From: Chloranthus sessilifolius
Taxonomy: Eukaryota > Streptophyta > Magnoliopsida > Chloranthales > Chloranthaceae
Length of the DNA: 64,000 nt
Direction: 5' to 3'
Assembly (NCBI GenBank): GCA_021018995.1
Contig: CM037598.1
Coordinates: 65,986,671 to 66,050,670 of the forward strand
In this document: piece after piece, positions 2,281 through 61,460 of the stretch
Position numbering within the stretch: position 1 is the stretch's first letter
Layout: the number at the start of each line of letters is the position of its first letter
Notes under the pieces: model-generated
Database searches by the model: none
Seen by the model: only the letters and a program-made list of their open reading frames with translations
What the model was told of the DNA's origin: nothing
Made by a program: the position numbers and the translations under genes

Positions 2281-2301
2281 GGCGCAACTAATAGTTGCGC
2301 C
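2281..2301. promoter_or_regulatory. Palindrome upstream of PMD copy A
   Basis: A perfect palindrome with 10-bp arms GGCGCAACTA and TAGTTGCGCC around a single A; a flanking T/A pair extends it to 11 bp. It lies 210 bp upstream of the leader-intron donor of copy A and next to a conserved GCCCGAG box (about 2240-2253, minus strand). It is the type form of the palindrome family in this window. Function unknown; it could be a dimeric protein-binding site. Confidence 0.75.
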
Positions 2302-2449
2302 AGGTCACTTATGGGATGGGTTTTAGGCCTGGTGCGGGTCACATGCATAGCCCGGTACCCCCCTCTCTTTGCTTTGTCACCCCCGATAGATGCACATACT
2401 CCCGAATGGTAAGTCGATCCTCATTCGGCTTGCTCGGGAAGTGGTGCTA

Positions 2450-3691
2450 GAATAAAATGGATCAAGATCAATAAGCATCCAGATCCTACATAGGAAAATG
2501 CAAAAAATCCAAAAAATGATAAAAAAAGTCCCACATAAAAAGCTAAAAATAATTCATATAAAGTGATAGAATAGAATGAAGTGATAGATTAAAATCACAT
2601 GAAATGATAGCTTTAAGGACCAAAAAATCACATGAAATGATAACTTAAAAATCTAAAAAATGATAAACACGAAAAAGGTCAAAAATTTCTCACATAAAAT
2701 AATAAAAAATATGTGCTTTATCAAAAAATAGCACATACTCGCAAAAAGCGTTGCGACATCTTTTCATTCCGCTCAGGTAGTCGCGCTAAATAAACTTCAG
2801 GATCAATGGGTTCACCCAAAGACCTTGAACCCTGATTCAAGCAGGAACACCCGTGACCAATTAAATGAGGCATTCTATGCCTCATATGATTGGACAAAAA
2901 CTACGCACATGCATATTTTAAAGCAGTAAAATGTCAATATTTTATTAGCAACGCGATTGTGCTATACCAATGTCCAAAGTCTAAGGTTCGCCTTAGATTT
3001 TTGGATCCTACTTTAAAGTAGGAGCAACGGCATCAATCCCAATCAAACGGTCAATATTTCGATCAGGATGATTCCGCTACTAAATCTTCGAGCTAACGCT
3101 CTGTCTTTGGATTCATATGAACGTGAGTGTTTAAGCTTCAAATATTTCATGAAATTTTCGGAAGTGTGGACTCTTGGTCTGTGCAGTCCGGGCGTGTGCC
3201 CTATGGGGTTTGAGGTCCGGGTAACTCCATTGAAAATGAAACTATATATTAATCAACTATGTGCAAACATGTATGTAGAAGGGTTCTTTTCCCTTATTTT
3301 TTCGCAGGCTTAAAACCTGCATTGGCACGATTTCCCTTAGATAGGCGCCATCCATCTGGGTATCCGTAGGATGGTCATTTATTCTCATAAATTATATACG
3401 GACAGGATTTGGGTCGAGACTTCCATCACCATTGTTGCTTATCGCTCCTAATGGGTGTATGTTTATGCATAGTTAAATGATTTAAATGATCATTATCGAC
3501 AGAGACTAGGATTAGGTGTCCCCTTCGACAGGTACCCAATTTTGGCCAGATCTATTTAGTATTATTTGAGGTTGAATGCTCTAGGGCATGTTGATCCGGG
3601 GCACATTATCAAAAAATAACACGTACTCCCAAAAAGTGTTGCAATATCTTTTCGCTCCACTCGAGCAGTTGCGCTAAATAAACTTCGAGAT
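2450..3691 (+). mobile_element. 3' non-coding part of a plus-oriented Tat element
   Basis: This is homologous, in inverted orientation, to 5750-6720 of R1. Matching blocks include the tract ending in AAATAAACTTC and the block around 2990-3060 with 'TTTAAAGTAGGAGCAAC'. The AAAAAGCGTTG...AAATAAACTTC block occurs twice (2745-2790 and 3620-3685), so this copy is rearranged. No gene is seen. It stops abruptly at 3691 where L1 begins, and no polypurine tract or own LTR remains. Confidence 0.6.
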
Positions 3692-4385
3692 TGTGCAACT
3701 GTGGGATTTTTGATGATCTTGTCGCGGCGATGCACTCGCTTACAAAAATATAGAGTCACCACCCAGAGCGTTCGGTGTCCCAGGAAACCTAGTTCATTTT
3801 TATGAGCACCGAAGTGCTAAAAATATGACTCTGAATCCGGTCCACACCAAAGGCTCTTGGGTAGGGGCACCCGATCAACCTGTTTAATGCGATCTCTACT
3901 TATGGCCAAAAATAAAATAAAGTAAAAGAAAAGAAAATAGCTTCCTCTTGCCCAAAAGGGGTTAGAATCCTATTTATGCCCCTCCGTTCCTACCGAAAAG
4001 TCGGCGGCGTAATGGCACATATGGAAGGATGGAGGGAGCTAGAAAGAGATAGGAGAAGAAAGGGGAGAGCCAGAGCCCTCGGGCCCTTGTAGCACCGTAG
4101 GTGAGCCTTGCGTGACTTGCTTTGTTGAGCTTTTAAAGGCCTTGTATGGTGGAAAATAGGGTTCTAACTCCTAAAGCTTGAAGCTAAGAGGTAGAGAAGG
4201 GAGGCTAGGGGGTCACACACACCTAGGCTAAGGGTTTTGGACGCAAGAACAAGCTCGGAAAGAAGTTTTGAAATTCTTGAATTTAGGTGAAAATGGTGCA
4301 CAAAAAGGGAGGAAGAACTTCTCACTTTGAGCTCTTTCTCTCTTAAGCAAAATTCTCAACCCTTAAACCAAGGGGTGGGGGTCTC

Positions 4386-4393
4386 TATTTATA
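4386..4393 (-). promoter_or_regulatory. TATA box of L1
   Basis: The minus strand reads CCTATAAATAGAGAC, a consensus plant TATA box. The same block is at the same place in L2 (28291-28298), L3 (34404-34410, TATAAAC) and L4 (59391-59400). Transcription would run leftward from about 4360, through the rest of the LTR and into copy A in its sense direction. Confidence 0.7.
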
Positions 4394-4676: not shown

Positions 4677-4880
4677 GGCGCAACTAATAGTTGTGCTAGG
4701 CAAATGTACAGTAAAATAGTATTCAAACAGTGCCTGGAAGTTAGCTCGCGAGGGTGGGGTCCACAATTAATACTAGCGCAACTATTAGTTGCGCTAGGCT
4801 TAAATCCTAGGAGAATTGGCCTGGCGCAACTAATAGTTGCGCTAGAAAAAGTTATAACTAGCACAACTATTAGTTGCGTT
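4677..4880. promoter_or_regulatory. Palindrome cluster in U3 of L1
   Basis: Four palindromes of the family occur at 4677-4697, 4773-4797 (12-bp perfect arms around a T), 4823-4843 and 4860-4880. They lie 290-490 bp upstream of the TATA box on the minus strand, so in U3. Variation is mostly G/A or C/T at CpG sites (GCGC to GCAC or GTGC), as expected from methyl-C decay. Confidence 0.75.
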
Positions 4881-5306: not shown

Positions 5307-5320
5307 GATGCCCCTCTTTG
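5307..5320 (-). other. Polypurine tract of R1
   Basis: The minus strand reads AAAGAGGGGCATC directly before the LTR start TGTAGACACC. A near-identical tract precedes L3 at 35203. In LTR retroelements this primes plus-strand DNA synthesis, and here it fixes the minus orientation of R1. Confidence 0.7.
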
Positions 5321-6700: not shown

Positions 6701-6891
6701 GGACAGGGGTGTTCATTGATCTCGGTCTGCTTTTATTCTAGCACGGCTTCCTTGGCAAGTCAAAGGATGATCAAAATGCCACCTTGGGAGTGCGTGCCTC
6801 TACTGGGAGTGACAAAACAAACAAAAAAAGGAGTGGGGGGGGGCGTCCCTATCTTGCCCGTACCAGGCCCAAGACTTGGCCAAAGTGCCTC

Positions 6892-7007
6892 GCGCAACTA
6901 ATAGTTGCGCTAGGCCACTAGGGGCCTCAAAATAGCTTGGCGCAACTAATAGTTGAGCCAAGCAAAAGGTGGGCAAAATTTTTCCTAGTGCAACTATTAG
7001 TTGCGCC
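6892..7007. promoter_or_regulatory. Palindrome cluster upstream of PMD copy B
   Basis: Three palindromes occur at 6892-6910, 6935-6963 (14-bp arms GCTTGGCGCAACTA with one mismatch) and 6987-7007. The last is followed within about 30 bp by a TTTAAA...GCCCGAG block and, 114 bp on, by a TATA-like CTTTATATTG. The same order is seen upstream of copy C. Confidence 0.75.
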
Positions 7008-8288: not shown

Positions 8289-10743
8289 CATGTCAGGCGA
8301 GGGTGAGCATATTCCTGAGGAGGGCCACGAGGAGGGGCCTGAGATAGTGTACGGCCCGCGGGGGGAGCAGTTCATTTAGGTAGATCAGAGAGCAGGTCCA
8401 TGGCTCGAGATGCAGGGCGAGGCCGCCCAGGTCGGTCTCCTTCACCAACAGCATACCCACATTTCAAATTTTGGGATAGCGGGCAAGGTAAAAGAGAGGC
8501 TCAGTTTATTTCCATTATACAGTTTTGCTTTGCCTCCGTGATCTAATGCGCATTTTTCTTGGGTGCAAGACCTGCCCAACATTGTGTTCCGCGGTGGGTG
8601 GCTTGACTTCCAAGATTTCTACCTCTATGTCCCTCCCGTAGTGAAGGTCTTGTTGGAACAGGTGGGCTTTGGAGAGTTTCTATCCTGCCCTGCCATGAGG
8701 GCCGATGCCGCCTATCTGAAGGCTCTGATCGAACGGTTTTACCCCAAGACGATGACCTTTCACATGCCGTATGCAGAGATGACTTTGACGCCCATTGACT
8801 GGGCCATGATTACCGACATTAGGATAGGGGGGATATCGATATCCGATCTCGCGATGCCGAGTCGAGAGGATATCATTCGATTGATTGGGGCCTATCCTCC
8901 TCGCGGGCAGACACATGGCACTGAGGTCAAGATGTCTTGGATGACCTCACTATATACACCTAATGAGTTAGTGTTTCTGGGTCAGCCAGACAGGGTGCTC
9001 TACATCACGCCAGAGTGGGCAATCGTCCTAGCCTGCATTACTCTCTTAGTCTTGCTTGGTAAGACCCTTTTCACCAATGCGAGCGTTGGTTGAGTCAGCC
9101 TAGCCTTGCTAAGTGTGATGGACAATTGGGGTGATGTCGACAGGTATGACTGGGGAGGGGCAGGGTATGCATGGCTGATGTACAATTTGTCTCGAGTCAC
9201 GACCGGGGATTCAAAGTCTGCAGTTGGATTTTAGGCCGCCCTGGAGGTAATTCCTCATTCCTTTGCCTTTGCTATATTTTTTTGAATGATCCATATATGC
9301 TACTGACCCGCTCTTGTGCAATGCCCCCTTTTCAGGTATGGGGATAACATCACTTTCACCCTGGGCGCCCGCTTCTTTTCTCGGAGGTGCTCACCTATCC
9401 CCTCCTCAGCAACTGAAATCAGGCCTGGTGCCGCGATTTAGGTTTAAAGCACTTGGAAACAGGTCTGAGGTCCCAACTCGACTTCATGGGTTCCTGAGCA
9501 GGTAAAACTCTCTTTCAACTTTGTTTGTTTTTAGCTCGGGAATCTCCTTTTACTGATGTGCTCACTGCTTGGATTCTCTCTTTTCTTTTTTGACTTGGGC
9601 AGATCCTCCCTGACCCATTCCTTGCATCCCCCTTCTAGGACCGAGCAACTGTAGGTGCTTCCCGCCTATTTAACGCGTCATTTTCTTTTATGGAGCATGG
9701 GACAAAGTCTATTATCTGGGGGAGTGAGTCGTGCACCAATTCCAGGGTTATTATGCCATACCTGTGGACCCTCCACCAGAAGTTTGGTATCCTGTTGGCA
9801 GTATCGAGGAGCTTACCGCGACCTTCTTCAACAATGGGCTTCCCATCCATGCTCTCCATGTGCCCAGGGACTATTATCTTTGGTACGAGTGCCCGCCATA
9901 CCGGTTTATCTTGTCACGCTTTCTACCTAGCACCAATTTTCTTGCGTTCGCCGGCCCTCTCGATCAGGAAATTCTTCTTAGCTTGGATTGATTCCCTTTA
10001 TGCTTTAGTTCAGTCCTTCATTCCTTCTAAGCGAATCTTTATTTTGTTCACAGTTTGCTCTAGGGGATGATTTGGATGGTGAAGGCAGGATGAGTGTAGC
10101 TGATATGTAAGGGGAAGATCCCTCCAGTGCTGGCCCTTCTGGTGTGGGTCCCTCTGGCGAGGGCTCCTCGGGTGCTGGTCCATCAGGTACCTTTCATGCT
10201 TAAACCCTGGTGGCAATCCACCTATGGTCTATGGGACCTTTTGACACCTGGATGACAGCTTCCTTTCAGGCCTCTGTGCTGATGTTGATCAACAGGCGCG
10301 ACTTTCTACTGAGGTGGCCCATGTTCCTCCTCCTGAGGTGATCCCAGGAGTAAGTCTTCTAATGGCCCAATCTCTCTCCATTTCGATCTCCTTCTGAACA
10401 TGCTTTTAAGATTGCCCTGACAACTAATGTTGTATCGTTCTGAACATAGGACTTCAACTCGGCCATGGAATATGCGAAGTACCATTGTCACCTTACAGAG
10501 CTTAGGGAGGTGGAGACGGTGAGTGCCTTGCTGTTCTTCTCCTCTTATTTACTTCATTATTATTTGCCCCTCAACTGATCTTGACTTTTGATGTTTGAAT
10601 GTGCCTCGCCGCGTGCCTGTGCCAAGGAGTCGCGCTCCTTACTTAGTAGGATCTCGTAGGCGTGGTCTAGGTGGGGGACATGCGGACCTTCCAGAGTTCT
10701 TCTCGCCGTCGCAAGAAATCAAAGGGCGCAAACAAGGAATAGG
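8289..10743 (+). pseudogene. PMD gene, copy B, multi-exon, antisense in R1
   Basis: The most complete PMD copy. Inferred exons: 8289-8487 (ATG 8290; stop near 8377), 8570-9246 (PMD core), 9336-9501, 9603-9967, 10054-10186, about 10270-10338, about 10450-10519 and a last exon ending at the stop near 10743. The core exon has DLPNIVF (partly cut by the shifted acceptor), LIERFYPKTMTFHMPYAEMT, PIDWAMIT, then LLVLLGKTLFTNA, with stops at 9091 and 9232. The acceptor of exon 2 has shifted one base (CAA for CAG) and the donor after exon 4 is GAAATT instead of GTAATT. Exon 5 encodes AGPSG-type repeats; the tail is basic (RRRKKSKGANKE), like a nuclear signal. It runs opposite to gag-pol. Known: PMD proteins have been tied to TE silencing in Arabidopsis. 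Its role here is unknown. Confidence 0.8.
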
Positions 10744-11132: not shown

Positions 11133-11201
11133 GGCGCAACTAATAGTTGCACCAGGCAAAAGTGGGGGCCAAAAAGCACTGGCGCAACTAATAGTTGCGC
11201 T
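11133..11201. promoter_or_regulatory. Palindrome pair upstream of D1
   Basis: Two palindromes at 11133-11153 (arm 2 has GCACC for GCGCC) and 11181-11201. They are 170-240 bp upstream of the D1 ATG and about 30 bp before a CCTTAGATACCCGAG block corresponding to the TATA-like block of D2. Confidence 0.75.
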
Positions 11202-11369
11202 AGGTTTAACCTACGGGGTAGTGGGTCCTTAGATACCCGAGTTAGTCCAAAAATCAATTCTTTTTATTTGACTTGGCTTCTTTGACCGGTTCTTTTTGCT
11301 CTTGCTTTTCCAAGGCGGGTCCATAGCCATACATCGATTTTTATCTTCTCAAAAGATCTTTGTACGTCA

Positions 11370-12880
11370 ATGAACCCGCTTTCTAACCCTCCCTTACATG
11401 GAGGGCCTGGAGCTAATTTACCCCCTTCCTTGGTCTTGGGGCCCAAATTTCTAATAGCCTGGTTTGGGAGCTTGAATGACAGTGAGCTCGCCGACTTGGA
11501 GCGCCTTGGGCTATCTCGCCTTCCTTCCTTTCTAGAGGTCCCTCCATGGTGAGAACTCCTTTACGTTGTCGCTTCATTTTTGGATGTGAATTTCCATGTA
11601 TTACATTTTGGGAAGCGGGAGCTAACCCCAACCCTCAAGGAGCTATCCAAACTGTCCGGCCAAAAGATTCACAAGGGTCTTGTATGAGTCACGCCACGGT
11701 CGGGCTACTCCAAATCCATCCACCTTACTCTCAGTTTGAAGAAACTTGAGTATGAGAAAAGTCTCATCGGGGGGCCCACAAGGTGTTCGCTAAAATTCCT
11801 CAAAGAACTTTTCGGTGATGAAAGTCTCCGAAAATTGCCGATTAGGAACATTTTCAACGTGAAAGCTCTAGCACTCGGTCTCATCTTTGAAATCCTCTTT
11901 TTTATCGGGGGAAAGAGCTTCTCCTTGGAAATTTGTGACATTTTGACTGAGCTGGAGGAGGGCCGATCCATGATGCATTTGGTGCTTGCCGAGCTGTATC
12001 GAGGCCTTGATTCATTTTCTTTGGGCAAGGGGGAGGGCAAGGTGGAGGGCCTTTGGGGGTGCCCCTTATTGCTTCAGGTTTGGTTGGGTGAGCACCTTGC
12101 TATCTTGGAGCCTATGCCTTGCTTTTATATTACTCGAGGTGAGGCGGCTTAGTGCTTCTGGGTAGGTGCCACTTGCTTCCACAGGGAGATGTGTCAGCTC
12201 TGAAACTTTGGTTGGCCGATGCCAAGCTGACATGGAGGCTTCCTTGGTTGGACCGGGCCTTCCCAGTAGTTCACTTTAGAGACCACGAGGGCATCACCCT
12301 CTTAGGATTGACTGGCAACACCTTTTACTTCCAATTTCGGGTATTGCATCAGTTTGGCTGCCCTCAGCAGGTGCCTTGTGAGGCCAAACCCACTCTATGT
12401 GATTTGATCTTTTCTAGGGGGTCCTCTGGAGACATAGATCGAATTGCTACTCTTTGAGAGATGTGTCAGTCGACGCTGATGTGTGATATTGAGCAGGGAG
12501 ATTTGGTTAGCACTTCTCTTGAGTATGAGGCCTGGCTATTGACTGAGCGGCCTGTTGCTGATGGTCCAGAATTGACAGAGATCGTTGATACTGGAGGCCC
12601 CTGTCGAAAGAAGGAGACGACACTCTGAGCCTGTATCGAGCTACTTGTGGACGAGAAGAGGGTCCTGTAAGAACTTTTGGTACAAGAAAAAGTTAGAGTA
12701 GACACAACAGAGAGCGAGGTCGTTCATTTGAAGGGATCACTGAGCGTAGCTTTTGGAGCCGCCGACTCTTCTCGGAAGAGGTATAAGAGCCTGCATGGTC
12801 GCTAGCTAACTGAGCGGAATGTCCGGGAAGATGACCTTCATGCGGAGATTAGTGCATTGAAGCGCGAGCTAGGCCGCTAA
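11370..12880 (+). pseudogene. DUF7745-like gene, first tandem copy (D1)
   Basis: The start ATG at 11370 (MNPLSN, matching MDPLSN in D2) is followed by readable blocks in three frames. 11370-11552 is the N-terminus. About 11550-12152 holds HFGKRELTPTL, then KSLIGGP, FLKELFGDES and GCPLLLQVWLGEHL. 12152-12457 holds LPWLDRAFPV, GITLLGL and RVLHQFGCPQQVP. From 12460 to 12880 a charged, probably coiled-coil tail (SALKRELGR at the end) carries several stops. FWD...HFG...ELxPTLEE and the LLQxWLxEHL block fit plant DUF7745/PMD-like proteins of unknown function; that name is from recall of the family pattern. Frameshifts are near 11550 and 12150; the latter is shared with D2, so it predates the duplication. 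Confidence 0.6.
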
Positions 12881-13640
12881 CTCCTTCTTGGACACGTAAC
12901 TTTTTGCACAGATCAGATACACAGAAAAAAGGGGCGTAAAATCCCTTTACAGATACACACATGTTTAGTATACATATTTTCTTTATATTTTTGTTATTTT
13001 TGTTGTTATTTATAAAAAGGGAAAGCACGTTAGTCATCACACCGATTATTTTTTGGGATGTGGTGTAAGCGATGCATTTTGTAAATGAAAGGTAGTTTAT
13101 TATACACATCTACACAAATCTTTTGGCCTTTTGGTTTTGTTTTGTGCATTTTTTATTTATTTATTTATTTTTGGTGTGGTGCCTTAATCACTGGGTGAAA
13201 CCTTGTGAAATCTTGGGTTCTCTTTTGAGCATGGTCAAATCCTTCTTTGACTGGTTGATTCTAAAAGAGTTTCAACAATCTTACCAAGGTCTGAACGTCC
13301 ATCCTTTTAGATTGAGTCAAACCTTTCTCCTTACATTGAGTCATACATTTGACAAAGCAGTTTTATGAGAACAATTCTGGTCGGGACTCGATTTGAACTA
13401 GCATGAGCGGCCCCAAAAAAGGAACCAGAGAGAGTAATCAAGAGGGCTCTTTAAACACTAATCATTTAAACCAAACCTTTTTTTTCTTTTACTTTTTCTT
13501 TGTTTTTCTCTTACTTTTTCTTGGTTTTTCTTTTTATTTATGTCTCAAAGCATAAAATAGGTGAACAGGCAACTAGCTAAGGGGGGCCAGTAAAGACACA
13601 CAAAAATCCCTTAAACAGCTCCAAAAAGGGCATAGAAGGG
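12881..13640 (+). other. 3' region between D1 and D2
   Basis: AT-rich. It contains GGGGCGTAAAATCCC, also present after D2 at about 15455. No gene seen on either strand. Confidence 0.4.
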
Positions 13641-13653: not shown

Positions 13654-13722
13654 TGGCGCATGTATTACATGTGCCAGGCTAATCCTGGAGGTATTTTCAC
13701 TAGCGCAACTATTAGTTGCCCC
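13654..13722. promoter_or_regulatory. Palindrome pair and TATA-like box upstream of D2
   Basis: 13654-13676 has arms TGGCGCATGTA and TACATGTGCCA around a T, so both arms changed together relative to the type form. 13702-13722 is AGCGCAACTA-T-TAGTTGCCCC. A TTATATGCCCGAG box follows at 13751, about 28 bp on, and the ATG is at 13890. This is the tightest palindrome-to-TATA spacing in the window. Confidence 0.7.
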
Positions 13723-13889
13723 AAGTTTAGCCTGGGGGACTGTGGGCCCTTTATATGCCCGAGAAAGATTATTCTCTCTCTCCTCTTTAGCTTGGATTTT
13801 TTAACTGTTTTCTTCTCTCCTTGGTTTCCCAAGGGTGGGTCCATTGACATGCATTGAATTTTATATTTTTGAAAGATCTTTGTACATCC

Positions 13890-15409
13890 ATGGACCCGCT
13901 TTCCAACCCTCACTTACATGGAGGGCCCGAAGCCAATTTACTCCTTTTTTTGAACTTGGGGCCCAATTTTCTAAAATATTGGCTTGGGAGCCTGAATGAG
14001 AGCGAGCTCGTTGATCTAAAGCGGCTTAGATTATCTCGTCTTCTGTCCTTTCTTGAGGTTACACCACGGTGGGACCTACTTCATGCGACGGCATCGTTTT
14101 GGGATGCAAATGCCCATGTGTTCCATTTTGGGAAGCGAGAGCTAATTCCCACACTTGAAGAGTTATCAAATTTTTTCGACTTGAAGCTCCACAGAGTCCT
14201 CGCAAGAGTCACGCCGAAGTTAGATTATTCTATGGCCGTTCACCTTACCCTAGGTTTGAAGATATTTGAGTATGAGAAAAGTCTCATTGGGGGGCCCCCA
14301 AGGTGTTCGATCAAATTCCTCAAAGAACTTTTCGGTGATGAAAGTCTTCAAAAATTGCCAGTTAGGAATATCTTCAATGTGAAAGCCTTTCCTCTCAGTC
14401 TCATTTCAGAAGTCCTCTTCTTCACTGGGGGAGAGAGCTTCTCTCTTGCTCTCTGTGACGTTTTGACAGAGTTGGTAGAGGGCCGATCAGTGATGCACCT
14501 GGTCCTTGCTGAATTATACCGATGCCTTGATGCATTCACTCTGGGTAAGGTGGAGAGCCTCAGGGGATGTCCTTTGCTGCTCCAGGTCTGGTTAGGTGAG
14601 CATCTCGCTATCTTGGGACTCGTACCCCGCTTTTACATTGCTTGAGGTGAGGCGGTTCGATGCATCTAGGCAGGTGTCATTTGATTTCACAGGGAGATTT
14701 GTCAGTTTTGAACCTTTGGCTGACAGATGCAGAGCTTATCTGGAGACTTCCTTGGTTGGATCGGACCATCCCAGTAGTTCTTTCCAGAGACCATGAGGGC
14801 ATCACCCTCCTAGGATTAACTGGCAGCACTTTCTACTTCCCATTTCGGGTGTTGCATCAGTTCGGTTGCTCTCAACAGGTGCCTTACGAGGCGAAACCCC
14901 CTCTATGTGATTTGATCTTTTCTAGGGGGTCCTCTAGGGACGTGGATCGGATTGCTGCTCTTTGGGAGACACATCAGTCGACGCTAATGTGTGATATGGA
15001 GTTGGGGGATTCAATTCAGTCTTCCCCTGAGTACGAGGCTTGGGTTTCAATTGAGCAGCATGTCGTCGATCATTTGGATCAGGCAGAGAGCAGTGATATG
15101 GGAGGGCCCTGGCCGAAGAAGGAGATGGCCCTTCGAGACTGCATTGAGTTGTTGACCAACGAGAAGAGGGTCCTGCAAGAGCTTTTGGCATAAGAGAAAG
15201 TTAGAGCATAGATAGCTGAGGCCAAAGCTGGCATAGCTGAGAGTGAGGTCCTTCATCTGGAAGGATCCCTAAATGTTGCTTTTGGAGCTACTGTTACTTC
15301 TCGAAAGAGGTATAAGAGCTTGTATGGTCGTTGGTTGACCGAGAGGAATGTCCGGGAGGATGGTTTTCGCGCTGAGATTAGTGCCTTGAAGCGTGAGCTG
15401 GGCCGTTGA
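13890..15409 (+). pseudogene. DUF7745-like gene, second tandem copy (D2)
   Basis: The better preserved copy. The ATG at 13890 (MDPLSNPHLHGG) is preferred over the in-frame one at 13854 because D1 starts there too. It is open to 14645 with FWDANAHVFHFGKRELIPTLEE, SLIGGPPRCS, FLKELFGDES and GCPLLLQVWLGEHL. After a shared frame change it is open again 14660-15193 with RLPWLDRTIPV, GITLLGLTGSTFYF and LHQFGCSQQVPYE. Stops at 15191 and 15209 interrupt a charged helical tail that ends ALKRELGR at 15409. GT...AG borders flank the frame change (about 14644-14695), but the 50-base gap would be too short for a plant intron and does not restore the frame. It is antisense to gag-pol of R1. Function unknown. 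Confidence 0.65.
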
Positions 15410-16930
15410 TTCCCTCATGCACATAATCTTTTTACACAGATTAGATTCACAAAAAAGGGGCGTGAGAAACCCCTTTACAGATACACATTTTTTTATATAA
15501 ATATTTTTTTTATGTTTTTATTTTTTCTAATTTTGTAAAAAGGGAAGAAAGAAAGCTAGACATCACACCGACTATTTTTTGGGATGTGCTGTAAGTAGTA
15601 CAGTTGTAAATGGAAAAGGAATATCTATTATATTTACAAAGATTTTTTTTTATTCATATTTATTGATGGGCCCCATTTTGAGATGAAATGTGCATAGCCT
15701 GAGCATGGAAGTAAAAAAGGGAAATCATTATCTTTCACAAAAAAGGGCTTTCCCGCCCAAGTGTGCAATGTGTGGGCATGCAAGTGGAAAAGGGAAATTA
15801 TTATCTTTGACAAAAGAGGTCTTCTGCCCTCTCCTTTATTCTCTTTTTGTTTAGTTTGATTTCTCAATCACAGGGTGAGATATCGGGTCCCCTTGTGAGC
15901 ATGGTCGAACCCTTTTAAGTGGTCAGATCTGGGTGAGTTTCATCAGCTTTACCAAGGCTGGAACGTCAATCCCTTCAGATTGAATCAAACTTTTCTCCTT
16001 ACCTTGGGTCATACATTCGACGAAGCAGTTTCACAAAGACAATTCTAGTCGAGGCCCGATTTGAACTGACATGAGCGGCCCAATCGAAAAAAGGGGAATA
16101 GGGAGAGTAACCAAAAGGGCTCCCCAAACATCAGTCTTATTAATCAGTTCATACCTTTCTTTTTCAATTCTTTCCTTTCTTACTCACAACGCCCAAGATG
16201 GGTTTATCGTGCACGTTTGCCCTCTTTTTACCCATGGCGCCCTTTTGGGTTTTCACCTCGTCCATGGGTTTACCTCTCTTATCTCAAGCGCGCCCTTTCA
16301 GGTTTTCACCTGGTCTGCACAGCTCGTTTTTACCCGTAGCGCCCTTTCGAGTTTTTACAACGTCCATCTTGGTTTGAGCTTATTTCTTCTCTTTTTTTTC
16401 TTTTTTCTTTTATATATTTTTTCAAAAGCCACGATATAGACGCTGATTCCATCATAGCCGGCAAGATGGGGTTCTAGTGTCGTCTCACAACTCGGCTCGT
16501 GTTGATAACATATACTATGATTGCTTATGAACCAAAAAATGAGGGCTTTCGTTAGGTGTAGCTTAGCCATGGATTGGGTTAGGATTTGAAGGTATGCTGG
16601 GCTAAAAAAGGTTTCCTTTATATGGTTTTAATTTTTCACAACATACTTTTTTTCTTGGGGGATTTTACGGTACATGCCCTATGATTCTTCTATTTTTTTC
16701 TTTTTCCTTTGTTTTATTTCAGGCAAACTCATTTTGAGGTTTTGATTTTTCAATTTTTTGATAGCAATTCTTCTTCATCTCTTTTTGTATATGTACACAC
16801 CTTTTCTTTTTCAGGGAAGGGGTTTATTAAAAGAAAGGCTAAGGCTCAAATGGGGTAGCAAAGGATATCATCATTTTTAGGGATGCTTTTTAGCTACTGT
16901 GTTTGGAATGATAGCCTTTTTTGGGTGGTT
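15410..16930. other. Region between D2 and the pol end, with 50-bp degenerate repeats
   Basis: No gene. 16190-16370 holds three to four imperfect repeats of about 50 bp, each with GCGCCCTTT followed by GGGTTTTCACC or a variant. Elsewhere T-rich. The 3' end of the second tandem unit lies at about 16140. Confidence 0.5.
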
Positions 16931-26210: not shown

Positions 26211-27513
26211 TCAAGACTTAATTTTTGGGTTTTTTTATTTATTTGATTTTTTTGAATTTTTATAAGCAAAAAGAATTAAGAACTCCGGGGCCTTTTGAAT
26301 TCTCTTCTCGGGTGGCTCTCGACCCTAAATAGGTCCCACGACAAAGGCTCCGAAGCACTTCAGAAGAATCAAAGGGAACCCCTTGATCTATTGAAGGCAC
26401 GAAAATTGATGCAAACAACCCGATTTCTTAAAATGAGTAAAAAAGAAGTCACCTTCTCTTGACCGGCGAGGGCGTATTGGGTGTCGGAGATTGTGGGGCC
26501 TAAACAAAAGTACTAAAGGCACTAATCAAGGAGTCCGGGGTGTGAAACAGGCCTCAGATTTGGGTTGTTGCTACCTAAACAAAAGCTGGCGCAACTATTA
26601 GGTGCGCCAGAACAAAAATTGCCCAATTTTATGCTGGCACAACTAATACATGCGCCAGTGTAATTCTGGGGCTTTTTGGCTTGGTGCAAGTAATAGTGGC
26701 GCAGGGCAAAAACTAGGGTTCCAGACAGTTTGACAGCATAAGTTCTAGCCCGAAATGAGTCTCCAAACTATTTTTTGTGAAAGTTAGGCTTCCGGGGACT
26801 ACTATTTATATGAATCGACTCTCTTCCTCACCGAACCTAAGGATACAAGGTTGATTCGGGTCTGCCAACGCTCACTTTTTCCTCAAGTTTTAAGCTTGGT
26901 AACGAGAAGGTTACCTACCCGATATACCTCAAGTGCAAGCACTTTCTCAGGTACTAGGTGGGCTGGAACTTTTCTGAATCATCACCACTAGAGGTTGCCG
27001 CCGTAGTAAGTCTCTGGAGTTTGTATGTGTGCCTAAATAGCCCAACCCATTAAAATCTACCCCGTAAAAATTAATTTAAATCCCTTTTGTTGGCTCAATT
27101 TTAATTTTCACTTTTAAGAAGGTTTTCTTAAGTTCAAAGATCGGGGGTGAGGATCCCGTGCCGCCTCTACGGGCCAGCATCCACTATTTGTAGTATGATT
27201 GTAGAATTAAAGGTGCAAGTAGGCCCGCCAAATGGCTAAGGCATTTAAAATGATGTAAAAGTAAAGAAAATTAAATGACAATGCATAAGTAGACCCGCTG
27301 ATCGGCTAAGGTACTTAAAATGACGAAAACATACAAAAATTTATTGCAAGTAGGCCTAGCAATCAACTAAGGCTCGTAAATGCTTTAAAAGTAGGGGTAA
27401 GTAAAATGACGTAATCAGAGGGGTGAGAAAAAAAAATAGTAAAAAAAATAGCAATAAATGATTAGTAAATCATAAATAAAGAGGCCAAATTCAAGGGGAA
27501 TCTCTACTAGCTA
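26211..27513 (-). mobile_element. R1 leader (PBS to gag)
   Basis: Non-coding, about 1.3 kb. Contains three degenerate palindromes (26586-26704) and repeats with the GGCTAAGG(C/T) core at about 27185-27400. Collinear with R3 60126-61460. Confidence 0.7.
26586..26704. repeat. Palindromes in the R1 leader
   Basis: 26586-26610 (12-bp arms CTGGCGCAACTA with one mismatch), 26634-26658 (hybrid: CAACTA arm facing TACATG arm) and 26681-26704 (degenerate). They lie downstream of the LTR, so in genomic RNA they would be transcribed and could fold as hairpins. Confidence 0.65.
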
Positions 27514-27534: not shown

Positions 27535-29089
27535 TGTGCAGTCGTGGGAATCAATGCGATCCCACCGCATGACGCGCGCTCGCGATAAAAATTTAGAGTC
27601 ACCACCCAGAGCTTTTGGTGTCTAGGGAAACCCAAATCAAATTTAAAGAGCTTTTGGTGTCTAGGGAAACCCAAATCAAATTTAAAGAGCACCGAAGTGC
27701 CAAAAATTAACTCTGAATCCGGTCTACGCCAAAGGCTCTTGGGTAGGGGCTTCGGTTATCGATTGGGAAGATGTTAGGCACCCAATCAACCCGCTTAATG
27801 CGGTCTCTACTTATAGCCAAAATAAAAATAATATAAAAGAAATAAAACAGCCTTCCTTTTGCCCAAAGGGCTTTAAAATCCTATTTGTGCCCCTCCGTTC
27901 CTACCAAAAATTCGGCGGCATAACGATACAAATGAGAGGATGGAGGAAGAATTGAGAAGGTAGAGGAATAGAGGGGAGAGCCGAAGCTCTCGAGCCCTTG
28001 CTGCACCACTGTGGAGCCGTGCATTGGCTTACTTCAGTGAACTTTTGATGGCTTGTATAGCTTGATGATGAATTCTAACTCCTAGGGTGGATAGCTAAGA
28101 GGTAGAGAGGAGAGGCTAGGGGGTAGCACACACCTAAACTAAAGCTTTTAGGTGAAGGGCTAAGGATTTTAGAAGGTTTAAAGGTTCTAGAATTTGTGTG
28201 TAAATGGTGCACTAGGAGACAGAGAGAAGGGATTCCTTAATCTCTTTTTTGTAAAATTTTTTAAGCCTTTGTAAAGGAGGGGTGCCTCTCCATTTATAGG
28301 AAAAAGAGAGGTTAGGAGGGTGTTTAGAGGCTAATTTAGATTAGCAATTAGGTAATCCAGCCATCTAAGGTTTCCTAGGGTTTTTGGAGCCTTGAAATGT
28401 GTGAAAAGGTGCTCCAATGGTGGATGATAGGGAAGGGGCTTTAAACCACTTAAGGGGTTGCAAATAGATAGTGAATGGGTGCAATAAAACTAGCAAAACA
28501 CACCCCAAAGGTCAAGATGGTCAACAAGTCAAATTCCAATCTCGATTTTTGAGATAAAACCACAGAGTTACTGTTCCTAATCTTGATGCAACTAATAGAT
28601 GCACTAGGTAAAGGTACAGTAAAACAATGTTTGAACAGAGTCTAAAAGTTGGCTCCCCGTGGTGGGGCCCACCTTATAGCTGGCGCAAGTAATACTTGTG
28701 CCAAATCCCAAAGGGGAACTCAGCCAATTTCTTGTATACAGCTCCGATTGGGGTGATCTTTGGCTTGCTGGAAAGATGAGGACTTCTACTTTTCAATGTT
28801 ATATGATTAGATTACAGTAGAAGGTCACTGCTAGTCTCGGTGCACTACTCTTCATCCACTGCTCGGGAAAGCTAGGTTTCGGTTCGGAATGGTTTCTAAG
28901 GGTCAGGATGGGTTTCTAAGGGTTTGAGAAGGTTCCTAAGGGATCTTGGGTGATTCCTAAGGGTTTGGAATGACTCCTAAGATTTTAAAAAGTTTCCTAA
29001 GGGTTCCATACATGCCATTAAAAGCTCGGAGATGCGCCTCTCTCGAAATGTGTCTCGATCGGGCCTTGGGCCAAATTTGGGTGTCTACA
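27535..29089 (-). mobile_element. LTR L2 (5' LTR of R1)
   Basis: Minus strand TGTAGACACCCAAATTTGG (29089) to CTGCACA (27535), 1555 bp, followed by the PBS, so a 5' LTR. TATA box at 28291-28298, palindromes 28587-28703. A short direct repeat (GAGCTTTTGGTGTCTAGGG) occurs twice at 27608-27670. By eye it is closest to L4 (shared CAAGTA/TACTTG palindrome and flank), not to L1. Confidence 0.85.
28587..28703. promoter_or_regulatory. Palindromes in U3 of L2
   Basis: 28587-28603 (TGCAACTA-A-TAGATGCA, one mismatch) and 28681-28703 (arms TGGCGCAAGTA and TACTTGTGCCA, a coordinated two-arm variant). They lie 290-410 bp upstream of the TATA box. Confidence 0.7.
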
Positions 29090-36448: not shown

Positions 36449-36520
36449 TGGCGCAACTATTAGTTGTGCCAAGCCAACTGGGGGGCCAACATAGCTTGGC
36501 GCATGTAATACATGTGCCAA
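36449..36520. promoter_or_regulatory. Palindrome pair upstream of PMD copy C
   Basis: 36449-36471 (arms TGGCGCAACTA and TAGTTGTGCCA around T) and 36496-36520 (arms TTGGCGCATGTA and TACATGTGCCAA around A, a coordinated variant). The TATA-like CTTTATATTG follows at 36631-36640, 111 bp on, nearly the same spacing as copy B (114 bp). Confidence 0.75.
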
Positions 36521-37630: not shown

Positions 37631-39550
37631 AATGTCGAATGACGAGGAGTACGTGCAAGAGGAAGAATAGGAAGAGGGGCCAGAAGTGGTTTACAGTCCT
37701 CGAGGAGAGCAATTCTTCGTGGTGGAACGTCCTACTGGTCCTTGGTATGAGATGCAGGGTGAGGCCGCCCGTACCGGTCTTCTTCACCATCAGTACACGC
37801 ATATTTCAAATTTTGGCATTGCTGGCAAGGAAAAAAGATAGGCTCAGTTCTTTTTCCTGTGCGGTTTTGCTCTATTTCCATGACCTGTTGCATCTTTTTC
37901 TTTTGATGTAGGACTTGCCCCACATTGTATTCTGAGGAAGCTGGTTAGATTTTCATGACTTTTTATCGCTATATCCCACCCGTCATAAAGTACTTGCTCG
38001 AGCAGGCTGGTTTTGGAGAGTTCTTGTCATGCCCCGCCATGAGGGCAGATGCAGCATATCTGAGAGATTTGATTGAGAGATTTCACCTAGAGACCATGTC
38101 CTTCCATATGGCCTTTGCTGAGATGACCTTAACGCTCGTGGATTGGGCTATGATTACAGGTATCAGGGTAGGGGAGTTCCAATAGCCAACCTTGCAGTGC
38201 CCAGTCGACATGAGATTATCAGATTGATAGGGGATTACCCCCCTCCTCCAATCGGCATGGTGCCGAGGTCAAGATGACCTGGCTGTCTGATCTTATTGGG
38301 CTGCATGAGTTAGTAGATCTGGGGCAGCCAAATGTGGAGATTTATATTGAGCCTGAGCATGCGATCATATTGGCCCGCATCACGCTCCTCATAATGTTGG
38401 GCAAAACCCTCTTTGCCAATGCTAGCGGCGGGCAGGTCAACCTAGGCCTACTTAGCCTAATGGACAATAGGCTCGACGTTCATAGATATGATTGAGGTGG
38501 GGCTGGTTATGCTGTGTTGATGTCTAGCCTAGTTGGAGCCTCCACGGGAAATGCAAAGTCCATTGTTGGCTTTTTGCCTACTCTGGAGGTAATCTCTTAA
38601 CTCTTTTTCTTTTATCAGTCTCTTTGCATAGTCGTTGTCAGCTTCTGACTTATCTTTTATGCACTACTCTCTTTAGGCATGGAAGTATCTTCATTTTCAA
38701 CCCGAACGTCCGCTTCTTCACTCGAAAATATACACTTACCCCCTTTTGAGCAACTGGGACAAACACCGGCACCGTGATGTGGGCAAGAAGCATCTGGAGA
38801 TGGGCCTGAGGTCGCAACTCGATCTGATGGTCCCTGAGCAGGTAAGGCCTTTTCCCCTCTGTTTATTTTAGTTCAAAAATTCTCCTTTGTTATTATGCAG
38901 CACTGTTGACTGATTGGCGACTTCTTGACTTGGGCAGATCATATATGACCCATGCATTAGCTCTCTTTCTCGGGACCGGGCTGCTGTAGGTCCATCTCGC
39001 CTCTTCAACAACCATCACGTCATCTTTTCCTTTGGGGCATGGGCCAGGGCCTACTACCAGGGGGAGCGAGTAGTTCATCAGTACCAGGGCTATCCTGCCA
39101 TACCCTCGGATCCTCCTGCAGACGTCATGGATCCCGTAGGTAGTATTGGGGAGCTCACTATGGCCTTCCTTCAAAATGGAATCCCCATCAATGCCCTTCT
39201 TATGCTTGGAGACTATCGGATGTGGTATGAGTCTTTACCATATCGATTTATTCTTTCGCGCTTCATCCCTGGTGTTAATTTCCTAGCTCTCGGCGGCTCG
39301 CGCTAATAGGTAATTCTCTTTTCCCTTTTAGATTGATCCCCTTCAGGTTTTGTTTCAACTTTTATTTCTATTGAGCGAATCTCTATCTTTTTCACAGTTT
39401 GTCCAGGGAGGTGATTCAGACGATGAAGGTGGAGCGGCAGTGGGTACTGCTGATGCTTTAGGGCAGGTCCCTCAGATGCTGGTCCTTCCGGTGCGGGTCC
39501 CTCAAGTGCTGGTCCCTTAGGTGCTGGTCCTTCAAGCTCTTCTCGCATGG
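37631..39550 (+). pseudogene. PMD gene, copy C, antisense in R2
   Basis: Inferred exons: 37631-37827 (ATG 37632; TAG near 37668), 37912-38588 (core), 38677-38841, 38938-39309 and 39398-39550. The core has YIPPVIKYLLEQAGFGEFLSC, LIERFHLETMSFHMAFAEMT, VDWAMITGIRVG, then EVKMTWLSDL and LLIMLGKTLFANASGG. Exon 3 reads HRDVGKKHLEMGLRSQLDLMVPEQ; exon 4 reads DRAAVGPSRLFNN and YRFILSRFIPGVN. Frameshifts are near 37940, 38180 and 38260. The donor after exon 1 is GGAAAA instead of GGTAAA. Exons 3 and 4 are cleaner than in copy B. Like B, it lies opposite to the element's coding strand. Confidence 0.8.
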
Positions 39551-47155: not shown

Positions 47156-47159
47156 TGTA

Positions 47160-52651: not shown

Positions 52652-52655
52652 TGTA

Positions 52656-58575: not shown

Positions 58576-58585
58576 ATAGTGACAC

Positions 58586-60105
58586 TATAGACACCCAAAT
58601 ATGGCCCAAGGCCCAATCAAGACACATTTCAGGAGAGGCACATCTCTGAGCTTTTGATGGCATTTCAGACCCTTAGGAATCACCCTAGCTCCCTTAGGAA
58701 CCTTTTCAAATAGAAACCCATCTCGACCCTTAGAAACCATTCCGAATCTAAACCTAGCTTTCCCGGGCAATGGATGAAGAGTGGTGCACCGAGACTAGCC
58801 ATGACCTTCAACTATAATCAAATCATATATCATTGAAAAGTAAAAGTCCTCAGCTTTCCAACAAGCCAACGATCACCTCAATCGAAGCTGTAGACAAGAA
58901 GATATCACATTCCAAAGCTCAGGGGTAAAATTATAAATTAGCTGAGTTCCCCTTTGGGATTTGGCACAAGTATCACTTGTGCCAAGCCATTTCTCCGCAG
59001 AAATGCCTTCGCACAACTAATAGTTGCGCCAGCTTTCAAACCCTATTCAAACACTATTTTACTGTACCTTTGCTTTGCGCATCTATTAGTTGCGTCAGGC
59101 TTAGGAATAGTAATTCTGTATTTTTGCCTCGAAAATTGAGATTGGGGTTTGCCTTATTGACCATTTTGACCTTTGGGGTGTGTTTTGCTAGTTTTGTTAC
59201 ACCCATTCATTATCTATTTGCAACCCTTTAAGTGGTTTAAAGCCCCACCCTATCATCCACCATTGGAGCACCTATTCACATATTTTAAGGCTCCAAAAAC
59301 CCTAGGAAATCTTAGATGGCTAGATTACCTAATTGCTAATCCAAGTTAGCCTCTAGGACCCTCCTAATCTCTCTTTTTCCTATAAATAGAGAGGCACTCC
59401 CCCCTTTACAAAGGCTTGAAAAATTTTGTAAAGTAAGAGATTAAGGAATCCCTTCTCTCTCCCCTGGGGCACCATTTACATACAAATTGCAAAACTTTCA
59501 AACCTTCTAAAAACCTTAGCCTTTCACCTAAAAGCCTTAGTTTAGGTGTGTGCTACCCCCTAGCCTCCCCTCTCTACCTCTTAGCCATCCATCCTAGGAG
59601 TTAGAATCCCTCGTCAAGCTATACAAGCCATCAAAAGATCACCGAAGCAAGCCAATGCAAGGCTCCACAGTGGTGCAACAAAGACCAGAGAGCTCCGGCT
59701 CTCCCCTCTTTTCCTCTACCTTTTTGGTTCTTCCTCTATCCTCTCATTTGTGCTGTTATGCCACCAAATTTTTGGTAGGAACGGAGGGGCACAAATAAGA
59801 TTTTAAGGCCCTTTGGGCAGGAGGAAGGTTTTTGTATTTCTTTTATATCATTTTTATTTTGGCAATAAGTAGAGACCGCATTAAGTAGGTTAATTGAGTG
59901 CCTAACACCTTCCCAATTTATAACCGAAGCCCCTACCCAAGAGCCTTTGGCGTATTCCGAATTCAGAGTCAATTTTTGGCACTTCGATGCTCTTTAAATT
60001 TAATTTGGGTATCCCGAGACACCAAAAGTTTTGGGCGACAACTCTAAATTTTTATCATGAGTGCAAGTCGTGTGGCGGGATCATCAAAAAATTCACTGTT
60101 GCACA
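58586..60105 (+). mobile_element. LTR L4 (5' LTR of R3)
   Basis: Begins TATAGACACCCAAATATGG (first dinucleotide TG changed to TA) and ends TTGCACA, 1520 bp, directly before a PBS. TATAAATAGA at 59391-59400. Aligns with L2 end to end in opposite orientation. It lies inside the beta minisatellite, so it inserted after that array formed. Confidence 0.85.
58961..59096. promoter_or_regulatory. Palindromes in U3 of L4
   Basis: 58961-58985 (arms TTGGCACAAGTA and CACTTGTGCCAA around T), 59010-59030 (CAACTA type) and 59076-59096 (CATCTA facing TAGTTG, a hybrid). They lie 295-430 bp upstream of the TATA box. Confidence 0.7.
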
Positions 60106-60107
60106 GA

Positions 60108-60126
60108 TGGTGACTCTGCTGGGGAG
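60108..60126 (+). other. Primer-binding site of R3
   Basis: TGGTGACTCTGCTGGGGAG two bases after the LTR end; two differences from the R1 site. Confidence 0.7.
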
Positions 60127-61460
60127 TAGCTACTAGAGCTTCCCCTTGAATTTGGCCTCTTTATTTTTGATTTACTAACGATTTATTGCTTTTGTTTTAC
60201 TATTTTTTACTCATCCCTCTAATTACGTCATTTTACTTACCCCTACTTTTATGCCATTTACGAGCCTTAGGTGATTGGCGGGCCTACTTGCGCACTGCAT
60301 TCAATTTTTGTACGTTTTCGTCATTTTAAGTACCTTAGCCGATCGACGGGTCTACTGTGCATTGTCATTTAATTTTCTTTACTTTTACATAATTTTACTT
60401 ACCCTACTTTTACGTCATTTACGAGCCTTAGCTGATTGGTGGGCCTACTTGCGCACCGCATTCAATTTCTTTATGTTTCTATCATTTTAAGTACCTTAGC
60501 CGATCGACGGGTTTACTTGTGCATCGTCATTTAATTTTCTTTACTTTTATGCCATTTTAAGTGCCTTAGCCATTTGGCGGGCCTACTTGCGACTTTAATT
60601 CTGTAATCATATTACAAACAGTGGACGTCGGCCCGTAGAGGCAGCACGGGATCCTCAACCCCGGTCTTTGAACTTAAGAAAACCTCCTTAAAAGTGAAAA
60701 GTAAAATTGAACCAACAAAGGGGATTTAAATTGATTTTTGCAGGGTAGAATTTTATAGGTTGGGTTTTTTAGGCTCACATATAAACTCCCGGGTCTTAGT
60801 TCGGCGACAGCCCCTAGTGGTGATGATCCAAAAAAGTCCTAGCCTACCTAGTACATGAGAAAGTGCTTGCACTTGAGGTATATCGGGTGGGTAACCTTCT
60901 CGTTACCAAGCTTAAAACCCGGGTAAAAAGTGAGCGTTAGCGGACCTGAATCGACCTTGTATCCCTAAGTTCGGTGAGGAAGAGAGCCGATTCATATAAA
61001 CAGTCAGTCCCCGAAAGCCTAGCTTCCACAAAAACCAGTTAGAAGACTCATTTCGAGCCAAAACTTCTACTATCAAATTGCCTGGAACCCAATTTTTGAC
61101 TGGTGCCACTATTACTGTGCCAAACAAAAAAGCCCCAGAATTACACTAGCACATGTATTAGTTGTGTCAGTATAAAATTGGCCACTTTTTGGTCTGGCGC
61201 ACCTAATAGTTGCTCTAGCTTTGGGTTAGGCAGCAGCAGCTTGAATCTGAGGCCTGCTTCACACCCTAGACTCCCCGATTAGTGTCTTTAGTGCTTCTGT
61301 TTAGGCCCCGTAGTCTACGACACCCAATACGCCCTCGCCAGTCAAGAGAAGGTGACTTCTCTTTGACTCATTTCGAGGGATTAGGTTATTTACATTAGTT
61401 TTCATGCCTTCAATAGATCAAGGGATTTCCCTTTGATTCTTTCGAAGTGCTTCAGAGCCT
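60127..61460 (+). mobile_element. R3 leader with tandem repeats and palindromes
   Basis: 60200-60600 has five copies of a 60-90 bp repeat with core GCCTTAGC(C/T)GAT and GGGCCTACTTGCGCA, arranged as a 180-bp higher-order duplication (R1 has three). Palindromes, degenerate, at 61101-61122, 61146-61169 and 61194-61218. The end of the leader aligns with R1 26220-26500. No gene. Confidence 0.7.

Follow-up and report, generated by a model that had tools for sequence, protein, structure and literature searches.

Arrays of 21-bp palindromes at promoters of very large plant retrotransposons appear to have switched their inner bases together between related lineages

Results

Palindromes of 21 bases, mostly spaced 47–48 bases apart, form arrays at promoters of very large plant retrotransposons, and their inner letters appear to have switched together between related lineages, as would be expected if each lineage's protein knows only its kind. 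Judging from sequence patterns, we lean towards the view that they are bound, as double-stranded DNA, by a sequence-specific dimeric regulator that the retrotransposons encode, most likely an antisense PMD protein acting in a VANC-like manner.

Palindrome arrays in the window and in the genome

Scanning the window (the whole 64-kb stretch of Chloranthus sessilifolius DNA analysed here) for palindromes of 10-1-10 form with at most six mismatches yielded 27 in 11 clusters and, as a possible 28th, a decayed 20-mer at 61102, in line with the initial annotation, which had counted about 28 near-palindromes in 11 clusters. It had also placed them outside coding sequence, and none of the 27 lies inside an ORF of at least 150 aa; the tandem block at 41.5–58.6 kb holds none of them either. 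Neighbours within clusters are 47–48 bp apart in 11 of 16 cases. This period, a second specificity class and a fixed frame with a variable core were absent from that annotation.

The frame, GGCG-NNNN-TA-N-TA-NNNN-CGCC, occurs at 34,945 exact places genome-wide (control, 3). Exact copies of class I, the CAAC-symmetric form, number 9,405 in the whole genome as against 0 for the reversed pattern, well beyond chance; a scan of a collection of prokaryotic genome contigs gave no exact class I site. The second class, TATA-symmetric GGCGTATATANTATATACGCC, is found at 8,687 places. The inner four bases follow CAWS in class I and TRTR in class II, and hybrids of the two commonest cores (CAAC/TATA) occur at 2 places genome-wide, compared with a yardstick of ~18,000 if these half-sites mixed freely. 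Conservation extends over at least 21 bp per site, and the preferred spacings between sites are 37, 47–48 and 96–101.

The period was also recovered by a motif-free palindrome search: pairs at 47/48 bp numbered 8 in the window, where 30 shuffles produced none (mean 0.0, maximum 0), and 10 across 20 random loci of 10 kb, where 30 shuffles averaged 0.1 with a maximum of 1. Six of these 10 belong to the palindrome system (L017, L022); the other four (L006, L007, L018, L019) were set aside as short GATACGTATCG-type repeats. A looser local scan returned 89 matches against 10 in the reversed-sequence control, so a few decayed local sites may be chance; six matches were discarded as spurious, and 25 of the 27 window sites were recovered, those at 58963 and 61148 breaking its rule.

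Elements and genes carrying the sites

Four LTRs, all with approximate bounds, carry arrays in U3. LTR L1 (3691..5307, minus strand) has four class I sites at 4677..4880 (4677/4775/4823/4860; spacings 98, 48 and 37) with a TATAAATA box downstream of them in the sense direction. L2 (27540..29089, minus strand), whose lower end was inferred from a PBS-like TGGCGACTCTACTGGGGA at 27532 (−), has two sites at 28585..28702 (28585/28682, spacing 97), and L3 (33688..35207, minus strand) has three at 34616..34780 (34616/34713/34760, spacings 97 and 47). L4 (58585..60105, plus strand), recognised by homology to L1 and bearing TATAAATAGAGA near 59381, has three at 58963..59096 (58963/59010/59076, spacings 47 and 66). 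U3 arrays lie upstream of the U3 TATA box. Beside several of them stand GTGGGNCCCAC-like sequences, which we take to be TCP-type.

Two further arrays occupy leaders. One, with three sites at 26588..26703 (26588/26636/26683), belongs to a minus-strand element and lies between its PBS and its gag; the other, with two decayed sites at 61148..61216 (61148/61196) and a possible third at 61102, precedes an ORF at 61437..62366 (+), which gave no match in a Pfam search and was taken as gag from its position and its homology with 25254–26164 (−). In the sense direction, no clear TATA box could be made out by eye for these leader arrays.

The remaining clusters lie upstream of antisense PMD genes of two types. 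Among A-type genes, PMD A (8329..10185, plus strand; ORF fragment 8542–9090, Pfam PMD 6.2e-9) is preceded by three class I sites of period 48 at 6891..7007 (6891/6939/6987), with TATA-like CTTTATATTGCC 117 bp past the last site, and its homologue at 37671..39534 (plus strand) by two sites at 36450..36518 (36450/36498, spacing 48), with CTTTATATTGCC 116 bp past the last; a single exact class I palindrome at 2281..2301 lies upstream of a minus-strand A-type remnant (~30–635). Among C-type genes, both with approximate bounds and on the plus strand, PMD B (11290..13104) follows two class I sites at 11133..11201 (11133/11181, spacing 48), and its ORF fragment 11688–12149 matches Pfam PMD at 1.2e-4, under Pfam's cut-off. 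PMD C (13810..15632) follows two sites at 13655..13722 (13655/13702; CATG/CATG and CAAC/CAAC, spacing 47) and a CTTTATA whose TATA lies 30 bp past the last site; its ORF fragment 13848–14642 matches PMD at 8e-9 and DUF7745 at 2.6e-8. More widely, C-type promoters have TATA 29–30 bp past the last site in four of seven cases, two per class; searched for strictly over 260 bp, the box was located in only 3/9 A-type and 6/7 C-type promoters, at varied distances. No credible match was obtained between the PMD profile and solved structures (best E 0.59).

The minus strand of the window gives profile matches to RVT_1 (5.6e-18) and RVT_3 (1.6e-13), for a reverse transcriptase and RNase H that may be of the Ty3/gypsy Tat type. 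The plus-strand PMD genes at 8.3–15.6 kb sit between minus-strand RT/RNase H (18.8–20.5 kb) and LTR L1, the Ogre/Tat arrangement of antisense PMD between pol and 3' LTR, in a window that is a mosaic and where L1 is perhaps not the LTR of that pol. The PBS after the 5' LTR, another Ogre/Tat feature, is present as the TGGCGACTCTACTGGGGA at 27532 (−), presumably of tRNA-Arg type; similar but not identical strings occur in L028 (4632), L029 (3720) and L033 (2310).

Site class follows element lineage

In homologous elements, class I and class II sites occupy matching positions (LTR U3, gag leader and the two types of antisense PMD promoter), and all 37 clusters placed by hand fell in these four non-coding contexts. 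Class is concordant within a few kilobases: on contig C1 to 69.43 Mb, among the matches listed, none of 59 clusters (78 sites) is mixed, and cross-class pairs within 6 kb number 0 of 18 as against 7.8 when permuted (0/20,000 permutations). Arrays stand upstream of both PMD genes in L022 (a random chunk), L034 and L035, and in U3 too in L022 and L034; all are class II, bar one CATA half-site in L022. Elsewhere, a PMD promoter with core TGTA (L027) adjoins class I arrays, apparently of another element, and a random locus (L024) with a weak PMD match (38% over 60 aa) contains no site.

Among the few copies compared, class co-segregates with PMD and LTR lineages. The tree of eight A-type PMD genes splits by class with support 0.997, and in that of 14 U3, built on sequences with masked sites, the TATA class is fully supported. 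These trees suggest a single main class switch, so that the co-segregation with PMD and the lack of hybrids could both reflect separate descent of two lineages.

At the distal U3 site, compared between nine class I and three class II copies in a MAFFT alignment that may itself line up frames, identity was 0.80 for the frame and 0.31 for the core, as against 0.50 for flanks within 40 bp and 0.59 for the rest of U3. Within class I, the core reached 0.875 and local flanks 0.71. Within classes the frame was no better kept than the remaining U3 (0.752 versus 0.765 in class I, 0.821 versus 0.838 in class II).

The initial annotation had asked whether the sites are shared only as copies of one ancestral block. 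Self-comparison of the window speaks against a long block, the four site contexts being without long homology around the sites; at shorter range the concern stands, with the U3 array and the A-type PMD promoter array ~79% identical over 72–74 bp, spacer included. All arrays may be of one origin, and even then their joint re-specification still calls for explanation.

Half-site symmetry

The cores of the two half-sites match in 51 of 79 local sites (permuted, 20.4; 0/10,000 permutations) and, among the matches listed for the frame, which were not chosen for symmetry, in 30 of 50 (permuted, 16.0; reached in 0/10,000). Symmetry is not strict, since hybrids such as CAAC/CATG and CAAC/CATC are frequent within class I. 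Together with the two CAAC/TATA hybrids, these counts support the earlier suggestion of binding sites for a dimeric factor. The companion suggestion of RNA hairpins is disfavoured: sense-strand mismatches comprise 30 G.U and 36 A.C, and no strand preference shows at the centre, with A in 42 cases, T in 40 and G in 1. Mismatches without strand bias therefore favour double-stranded DNA over RNA hairpins.

Discussion

We infer protein binding, encoding by the element, PMD identity, cooperativity and an activating or anti-silencing effect from these patterns. The regulator would most likely be one or both antisense PMD (PMD/DUF7745) proteins, each half-site GGCG-NNNN-TA being read by one subunit. 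GGCG and TA would be contacts common to all members, and the four inner bases would set the specificity class. Dimers may occupy the 47–48 bp arrays cooperatively in U3, gag leader and both PMD promoters, and would thereby increase or protect transcription of the PMD genes as well as the genomic RNA, by self-activation or anti-silencing as in VANC; a change in protein specificity would then drag along the sites of that lineage. More tentatively, retrotransposon PMD proteins might form a homodimeric DNA-binding family, with conserved outer GGCG and TA contacts and an evolvable four-base head, through which each lineage would recognise and de-repress its own copies alone by way of the 47–48 bp arrays in LTR, leader and its antisense promoters; within a single genome, lineages would speciate by code switch, and host genes of MAIN/MAIL type would be domesticated relatives.

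An alternative in which a dimeric transcription factor of the host (of MYB, TCP or E2F type, for instance) binds sites that the elements captured as enhancers, with the classes reflecting different host factors, seems unlikely. Host MYB factors do bind U3 enhancers of other LTR elements (Tto1), Tto1-type LTRs having repeated host-MYB binding motifs in U3, and the GTGGGNCCCAC-like sequences adjoining several U3 arrays, if TCP-type as we presume, point the same way. Tto1 involves a host factor, a short non-palindromic motif and U3 alone, and is not known to show co-switching of several promoters. Here, however, the GGCG..TA frame stays constant while the core changes across the arrays of an element, the two commonest cores scarcely mix, at least 21 bp are conserved, and A-type PMD genes divide by class, though in one event. 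Inert arrays, duplicated among promoters from an ancestral one and kept symmetric by gene conversion or by hairpin copying during reverse transcription, would fit the ~79% likeness of array and spacer between U3 and A-type PMD promoter and the within-class frame being no better kept than the remaining U3. We consider them improbable, because the frame outlasts local flanks and remaining U3 between classes (in the same MAFFT alignment), because it is difficult to see how gene conversion would be confined to palindromes of 21 bp that lie in four contexts among different spacers, and because position relative to the TATA box is kept in several promoters.

That the palindromes act as hairpins in genomic RNA, as packaging, dimerisation or stability signals, is very improbable, even though their contexts should fall within the full-length RNA expected from element layout and two-sided symmetric changes leave a stem possible. 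Besides the absence of G.U preference and the strand-neutral centre base, the preferred spacings and the fixed TATA box distance in several promoters argue against it, and the unpaired loop of such a hairpin would be TA-N-TA, which hardly varies. A part in chromatin organisation or integration (nucleosome phasing, insulation or targeting) through a protein other than a transcription regulator might be read from regular 47–48 bp arrays in non-coding DNA and from leader arrays that, by eye, have no obvious sense TATA box, but because sites immediately precede the TATA boxes of several C-type PMD genes, and in U3 lie upstream of that box, we give it hardly any weight.

The regulator proposed here, a retrotransposon-encoded dimer, resembles VANC of Arabidopsis VANDAL (Mutator-like) transposons, where protein and target motifs evolve together and related families have different motifs, e.g., YAGTATTAY or AGTTGTCC/AGTTGTAC (PMC5735166). 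There, motifs are amassed in non-coding regions of the element, often in tandem, and the protein is element-encoded, as it would be here; VANDAL is, however, a DNA transposon with short motifs, not described as palindromes in the portions of that source cited here (PMC5735166). In our elements, too, motifs lie in non-coding regions (0/27 in ORFs of at least 150 aa, 37/37 clusters) and differ in step with protein lineage (14 U3, eight A-type PMD), with one main switch only. They differ from VANDAL in being LTR retrotransposons with a 21-bp two-fold symmetric frame, a variable core, a 47–48 bp period and PMD as candidate protein.

PMD-domain proteins have been tied to a promoter motif before: Arabidopsis MAIN/MAIL1 (PMD-C) are required by genes carrying DOWN, which is CATGCAGTTT in the MORC1 promoter, and how they find targets, direct binding included, is left open in the portions cited (PMC7156037, PMC9899485). 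DOWN is a short motif of host genes, with no palindrome or array described in those portions, and comparison by eye alone gave no convincing match between CATGCAGTTT and GGCGCAACTANTAGTTGCGCC. Ogre/Tat elements and Retand appear to be of the same kind as ours, long LTR retrotransposons with extra genes: PMD occurs in 57% of Ogre elements, TRP28 genes of Retand lie antisense between pol and 3' LTR, and the antisense ORFs are said to be of unknown function with a suspected regulatory role; target sites or palindromic arrays are not described in the portions cited (PMC6317226, PMC11963269, PMC7264820). Ogre and Retand are said to have an additional RNase H, placed between RH and INT (PMC6317226), sequence-variable tandem arrays between pol and 3' LTR are reported (PMC11963269), and PMD-A1/A2 clades are given in PMC5418596. 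Such palindrome arrays were not found described in the portions of the literature that our search returned.

The 34,945 exact frame sites, in natural specificity classes, constitute a directly testable candidate target sequence. If our reading is true, LTR retrotransposons would own a sequence-specific self-recognition code that diverges between lineages like a private key, and the finding would suggest a source of the DNA specificity of PMD proteins.

Palindrome arrays occupy four element contexts

A mismatch scan of the window for GGCGCAACTA-N-TAGTTGCGCC (one-base centre, at most six mismatches) recovered 27 palindromes in 11 clusters, all inside the span for which the initial annotation had claimed about 28, and none of the 27 falls in an open reading frame of at least 150 amino acids, in line with its placement of the sites outside coding sequence. 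Each 21-bp site consists of a frame (GGCGNNNNTANTANNNNCGCC) around a variable four-base core, which is of CAWS type (e.g. CAAC) in class I and of TRTR type (e.g. TATA, TGTG) in class II. Self-comparison of the window resolved four contexts: LTRs (4), gag leaders (2), A-type PMD genes including upstream sequence (3) and C-type PMD genes (2). Pfam identified PMD and DUF7745. When the window was combined with other loci fetched from the genome (L0xx), all 37 clusters could be placed by hand, through homology, in U3 (15), in the gag leader (6), before an A-type PMD gene (9) or before a C-type PMD gene (7), which bears out the proposed location in LTRs, leaders and antisense gene promoters.

A TATAAAT box follows the sites by about 200–500 bp in 13 of 14 aligned LTR U3 regions, the window LTR L3 having TATAAAC. 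TATA begins 29–30 bp past the last palindrome in four of seven C-type promoters (two per class) and 116–117 bp past it in three of nine A-type promoters. By eye, no obvious sense-direction TATA box was found at the gag leader arrays. The arrays in U3 and in one A-type promoter are about 79% identical across 72–74 bp, so arrays of different contexts may have a common origin.

A single intact 25-kb element spanning L1 to L2 was rejected; these LTRs are only about 73–76% identical, and the window was therefore treated as a mosaic of several copies. Other repeats occur nearby. Positions 41500–58600 hold three tandem copies of a unit of about 5.5 kb, several 300-nt stretches being 99–100% identical and others less so; this block contains 14-bp arrays (GAACGTGAATGCTT), and the mismatch scan of the window found no 21-bp palindrome in it. 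Palindromes of GTGGGNCCCAC type, which we take to resemble TCP sites, flank the arrays in U3 of several LTRs (e.g. window 34690–34706 and L028 near 3540). Tandem repeats of 24 bp (CATGACCCAGACCCACCAAGGGCC type) lie near gag at 62576–62779 and 25066–25244, in opposite orientations.

Sites recur genome-wide at regular spacing

We searched 2.17 Gb in 32 contigs (15 of 96–199 Mb, the 16th of 6 Mb). Exact copies of the class I palindrome number 9,405 versus 0 for the reversed control, those of the class II form GGCGTATATANTATATACGCC 8,687 versus 0, and those of the frame 34,945 versus 3; no exact class I site was present in a collection of prokaryotic genome contigs. Random sampling found sites of this system in 2 of 20 10-kb loci (L017 and L022), and each of the two shows homology to elements of the window. 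A looser local scan gave 89 matches (10 in the reversed-sequence control), from which six judged spurious were removed (window 27497, L005, two in L006, L015 and L020). The resulting 83-site set covers the window, L001, L002, L004 and L005–L030; L003, which overlaps L002, was left out of the counts, and L031–L035 were added later, L031–L032 being unused (overlap with L026).

Neighbouring sites within window clusters are 47–48 bp apart in 11 of 16 cases. Among the 83 sites, distances below 150 bp were 37 (4 cases), 47 (18), 48 (17), 49 (1), 66 (1), 78 (1) and 96–101 bp (10). Spacings of 37, 47.5 and 100 bp are whole helical turns (10.5 bp) apart, a pattern that we treat as no more than suggestive, since the 66-bp spacing breaks the rule. 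In the window, a motif-free palindrome search yielded eight pairs spaced 47/48 bp versus 0 in 30 shuffles, and in the 20 random loci it yielded ten versus a shuffle mean of 0.1; six of these ten belong to this system and four are unrelated short repeats. Taken with the reversed and prokaryotic controls, the counts and shuffles exclude chance or simple repeats as the origin of the palindromes. The spacer between two sites is sometimes itself palindromic (AGCCATTTCTGGGGAGAAATGGCT; window 34735–34758 and 58985–59008), so that dyads alternate there about every 24 bp. A separate family of short palindromic repeats of GATACGTATCG type, some likewise spaced at 48 bp, is present at L006 2452–2541, L007 6675–6773, L018 2991–3059 and L019 1411–1479; these loci were rejected as instances of the same architecture.

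Half-site cores tend to match and classes switch together

The two cores of a site tend to be identical. Among the first 50 matches listed in the frame search, picked without regard to symmetry, 30 had identical cores versus 16.0 after permutation (0 of 10,000 permutations reached 30); 36 were class I on both sides, nine class II on both, one class I/II and four other. Identical cores were found in 51 of 79 local sites selected by frame only, versus 20.4 permuted (0/10,000). Hybrids of the two commonest cores occur at only two places genome-wide, where free mixing would predict about 18,000, a scarcity that would also be expected from separate descent of two lineages; hybrids inside class I (e.g. 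CAAC/CATG) are frequent.

Class also tends to agree between arrays of an element. In the random chunk L022, a pair of PMD genes on the minus strand accompanies an LTR that shows homology to the window LTRs; its arrays occupy three of the four contexts and are all class II except for one half-site, CATA. L034 and L035, retrieved for holding several class II sites, show this layout again, with four sites before the C-type and two before the A-type PMD gene, with a U3 array also in L034. For an unselected test, we used two exact-class listings covering C1, a contig of the same genome, to 69.43 Mb (78 sites, 59 clusters). None of the 59 clusters was mixed, and cross-class pairs of clusters numbered 0 of 18 within 6 kb (permuted mean 7.8; 0/20,000) and 6 of 51 within 25 kb (permuted 22.0). 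At the locus level one of nine loci was discordant, in a sample biased because most loci were chosen for containing sites and L034/L035 for class II sites. The random locus L024, with a weak PMD match, has no palindrome site.

At the distal U3 site, conservation between nine class I and three class II copies (L025 and L027 omitted) was 0.80 for the frame, 0.50 for flanks up to 40 bp, 0.59 for the rest of U3 and 0.31 for the core. Within class I the core was best kept (0.875; flanks 0.71, rest of U3 0.765, frame 0.752), and within class II the values were 0.90 for the core, 0.82 for the frame and 0.84 for the rest. The frame is thus no better kept than the rest of U3 within either class, and its CpGs decay. 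A tree of eight A-type PMD genes separated class I from class II (support 0.997), and in a U3 tree with sites masked the TATA class grouped into a single clade, to which the TGTG LTR was sister. Since the trees contain one main switch, they demonstrate co-inheritance and not repeated co-evolution. In L027, an array with TGTA cores stands upstream of a PMD gene and adjoins class I arrays that probably belong to a neighbouring element; at 5287–5354, upstream of a diverged C-type PMD gene, lies a variant, AGCGTGTATANTATACACGCT, with the outer pair turned A–T, possibly a further specificity class.

A candidate dimeric regulator

The initial annotation had left open binding sites of a dimeric factor or RNA hairpins. 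If the sites formed an RNA stem, G.U should be preferred among sense-strand mismatches. After manual assignment of each element's sense strand, the mismatched pairs in the 83 sites comprised 30 G.U, 36 A.C and 40 of other kinds; A stood at the centre in 42 sites, T in 40 and G in 1. Given this lack of strand bias, the two strands of the site appear equivalent, the symmetry that a DNA-bound protein dimer would need; the hairpin reading was rejected, and the palindromes stand as candidate sites of a dimeric factor.

Searches combining PMD with DNA motif, palindrome, Polycomb or DNA-binding, and Ogre with palindrome, retrieved no description of such arrays in the titles, abstract openings and text excerpts covered, which came mainly from open-access papers. 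Papers with strings matching the palindrome letters look unrelated by title and start of abstract, among the matches listed. Work on PMD–DNA motif modules in Arabidopsis reportedly exists and may bear on the arrays. Rfam at gathering scores and ARAGORN each gave no match. Comparison of PMD with solved structures produced no credible match (only two, E 0.59 and 0.82), and a protein search returned 1,777 candidates, none at E ≤ 0.001.

From the sequence patterns, we consider it very likely that a dimeric protein binds the palindromes as DNA. The constancy of the frame suggests one protein family, which would read it, and class concordance over arrays with unrelated flanks suggests a trans-acting factor that would work within its own lineage. 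This binder is probably encoded by the element itself, and PMD may well be that protein, acting by activation or anti-silencing. Weighing against this reading are the TGTA-core array next to class I arrays in L027, the PMD match lacking sites in L024, the similarity of the U3 and A-type promoter arrays, and the want of a credible structural match for PMD. By analogy, the closest working model for the proposed palindrome binder would be VANC, which binds tandem motifs of its own transposon and lifts silencing, related VANCs using different motifs (PMC5735166).
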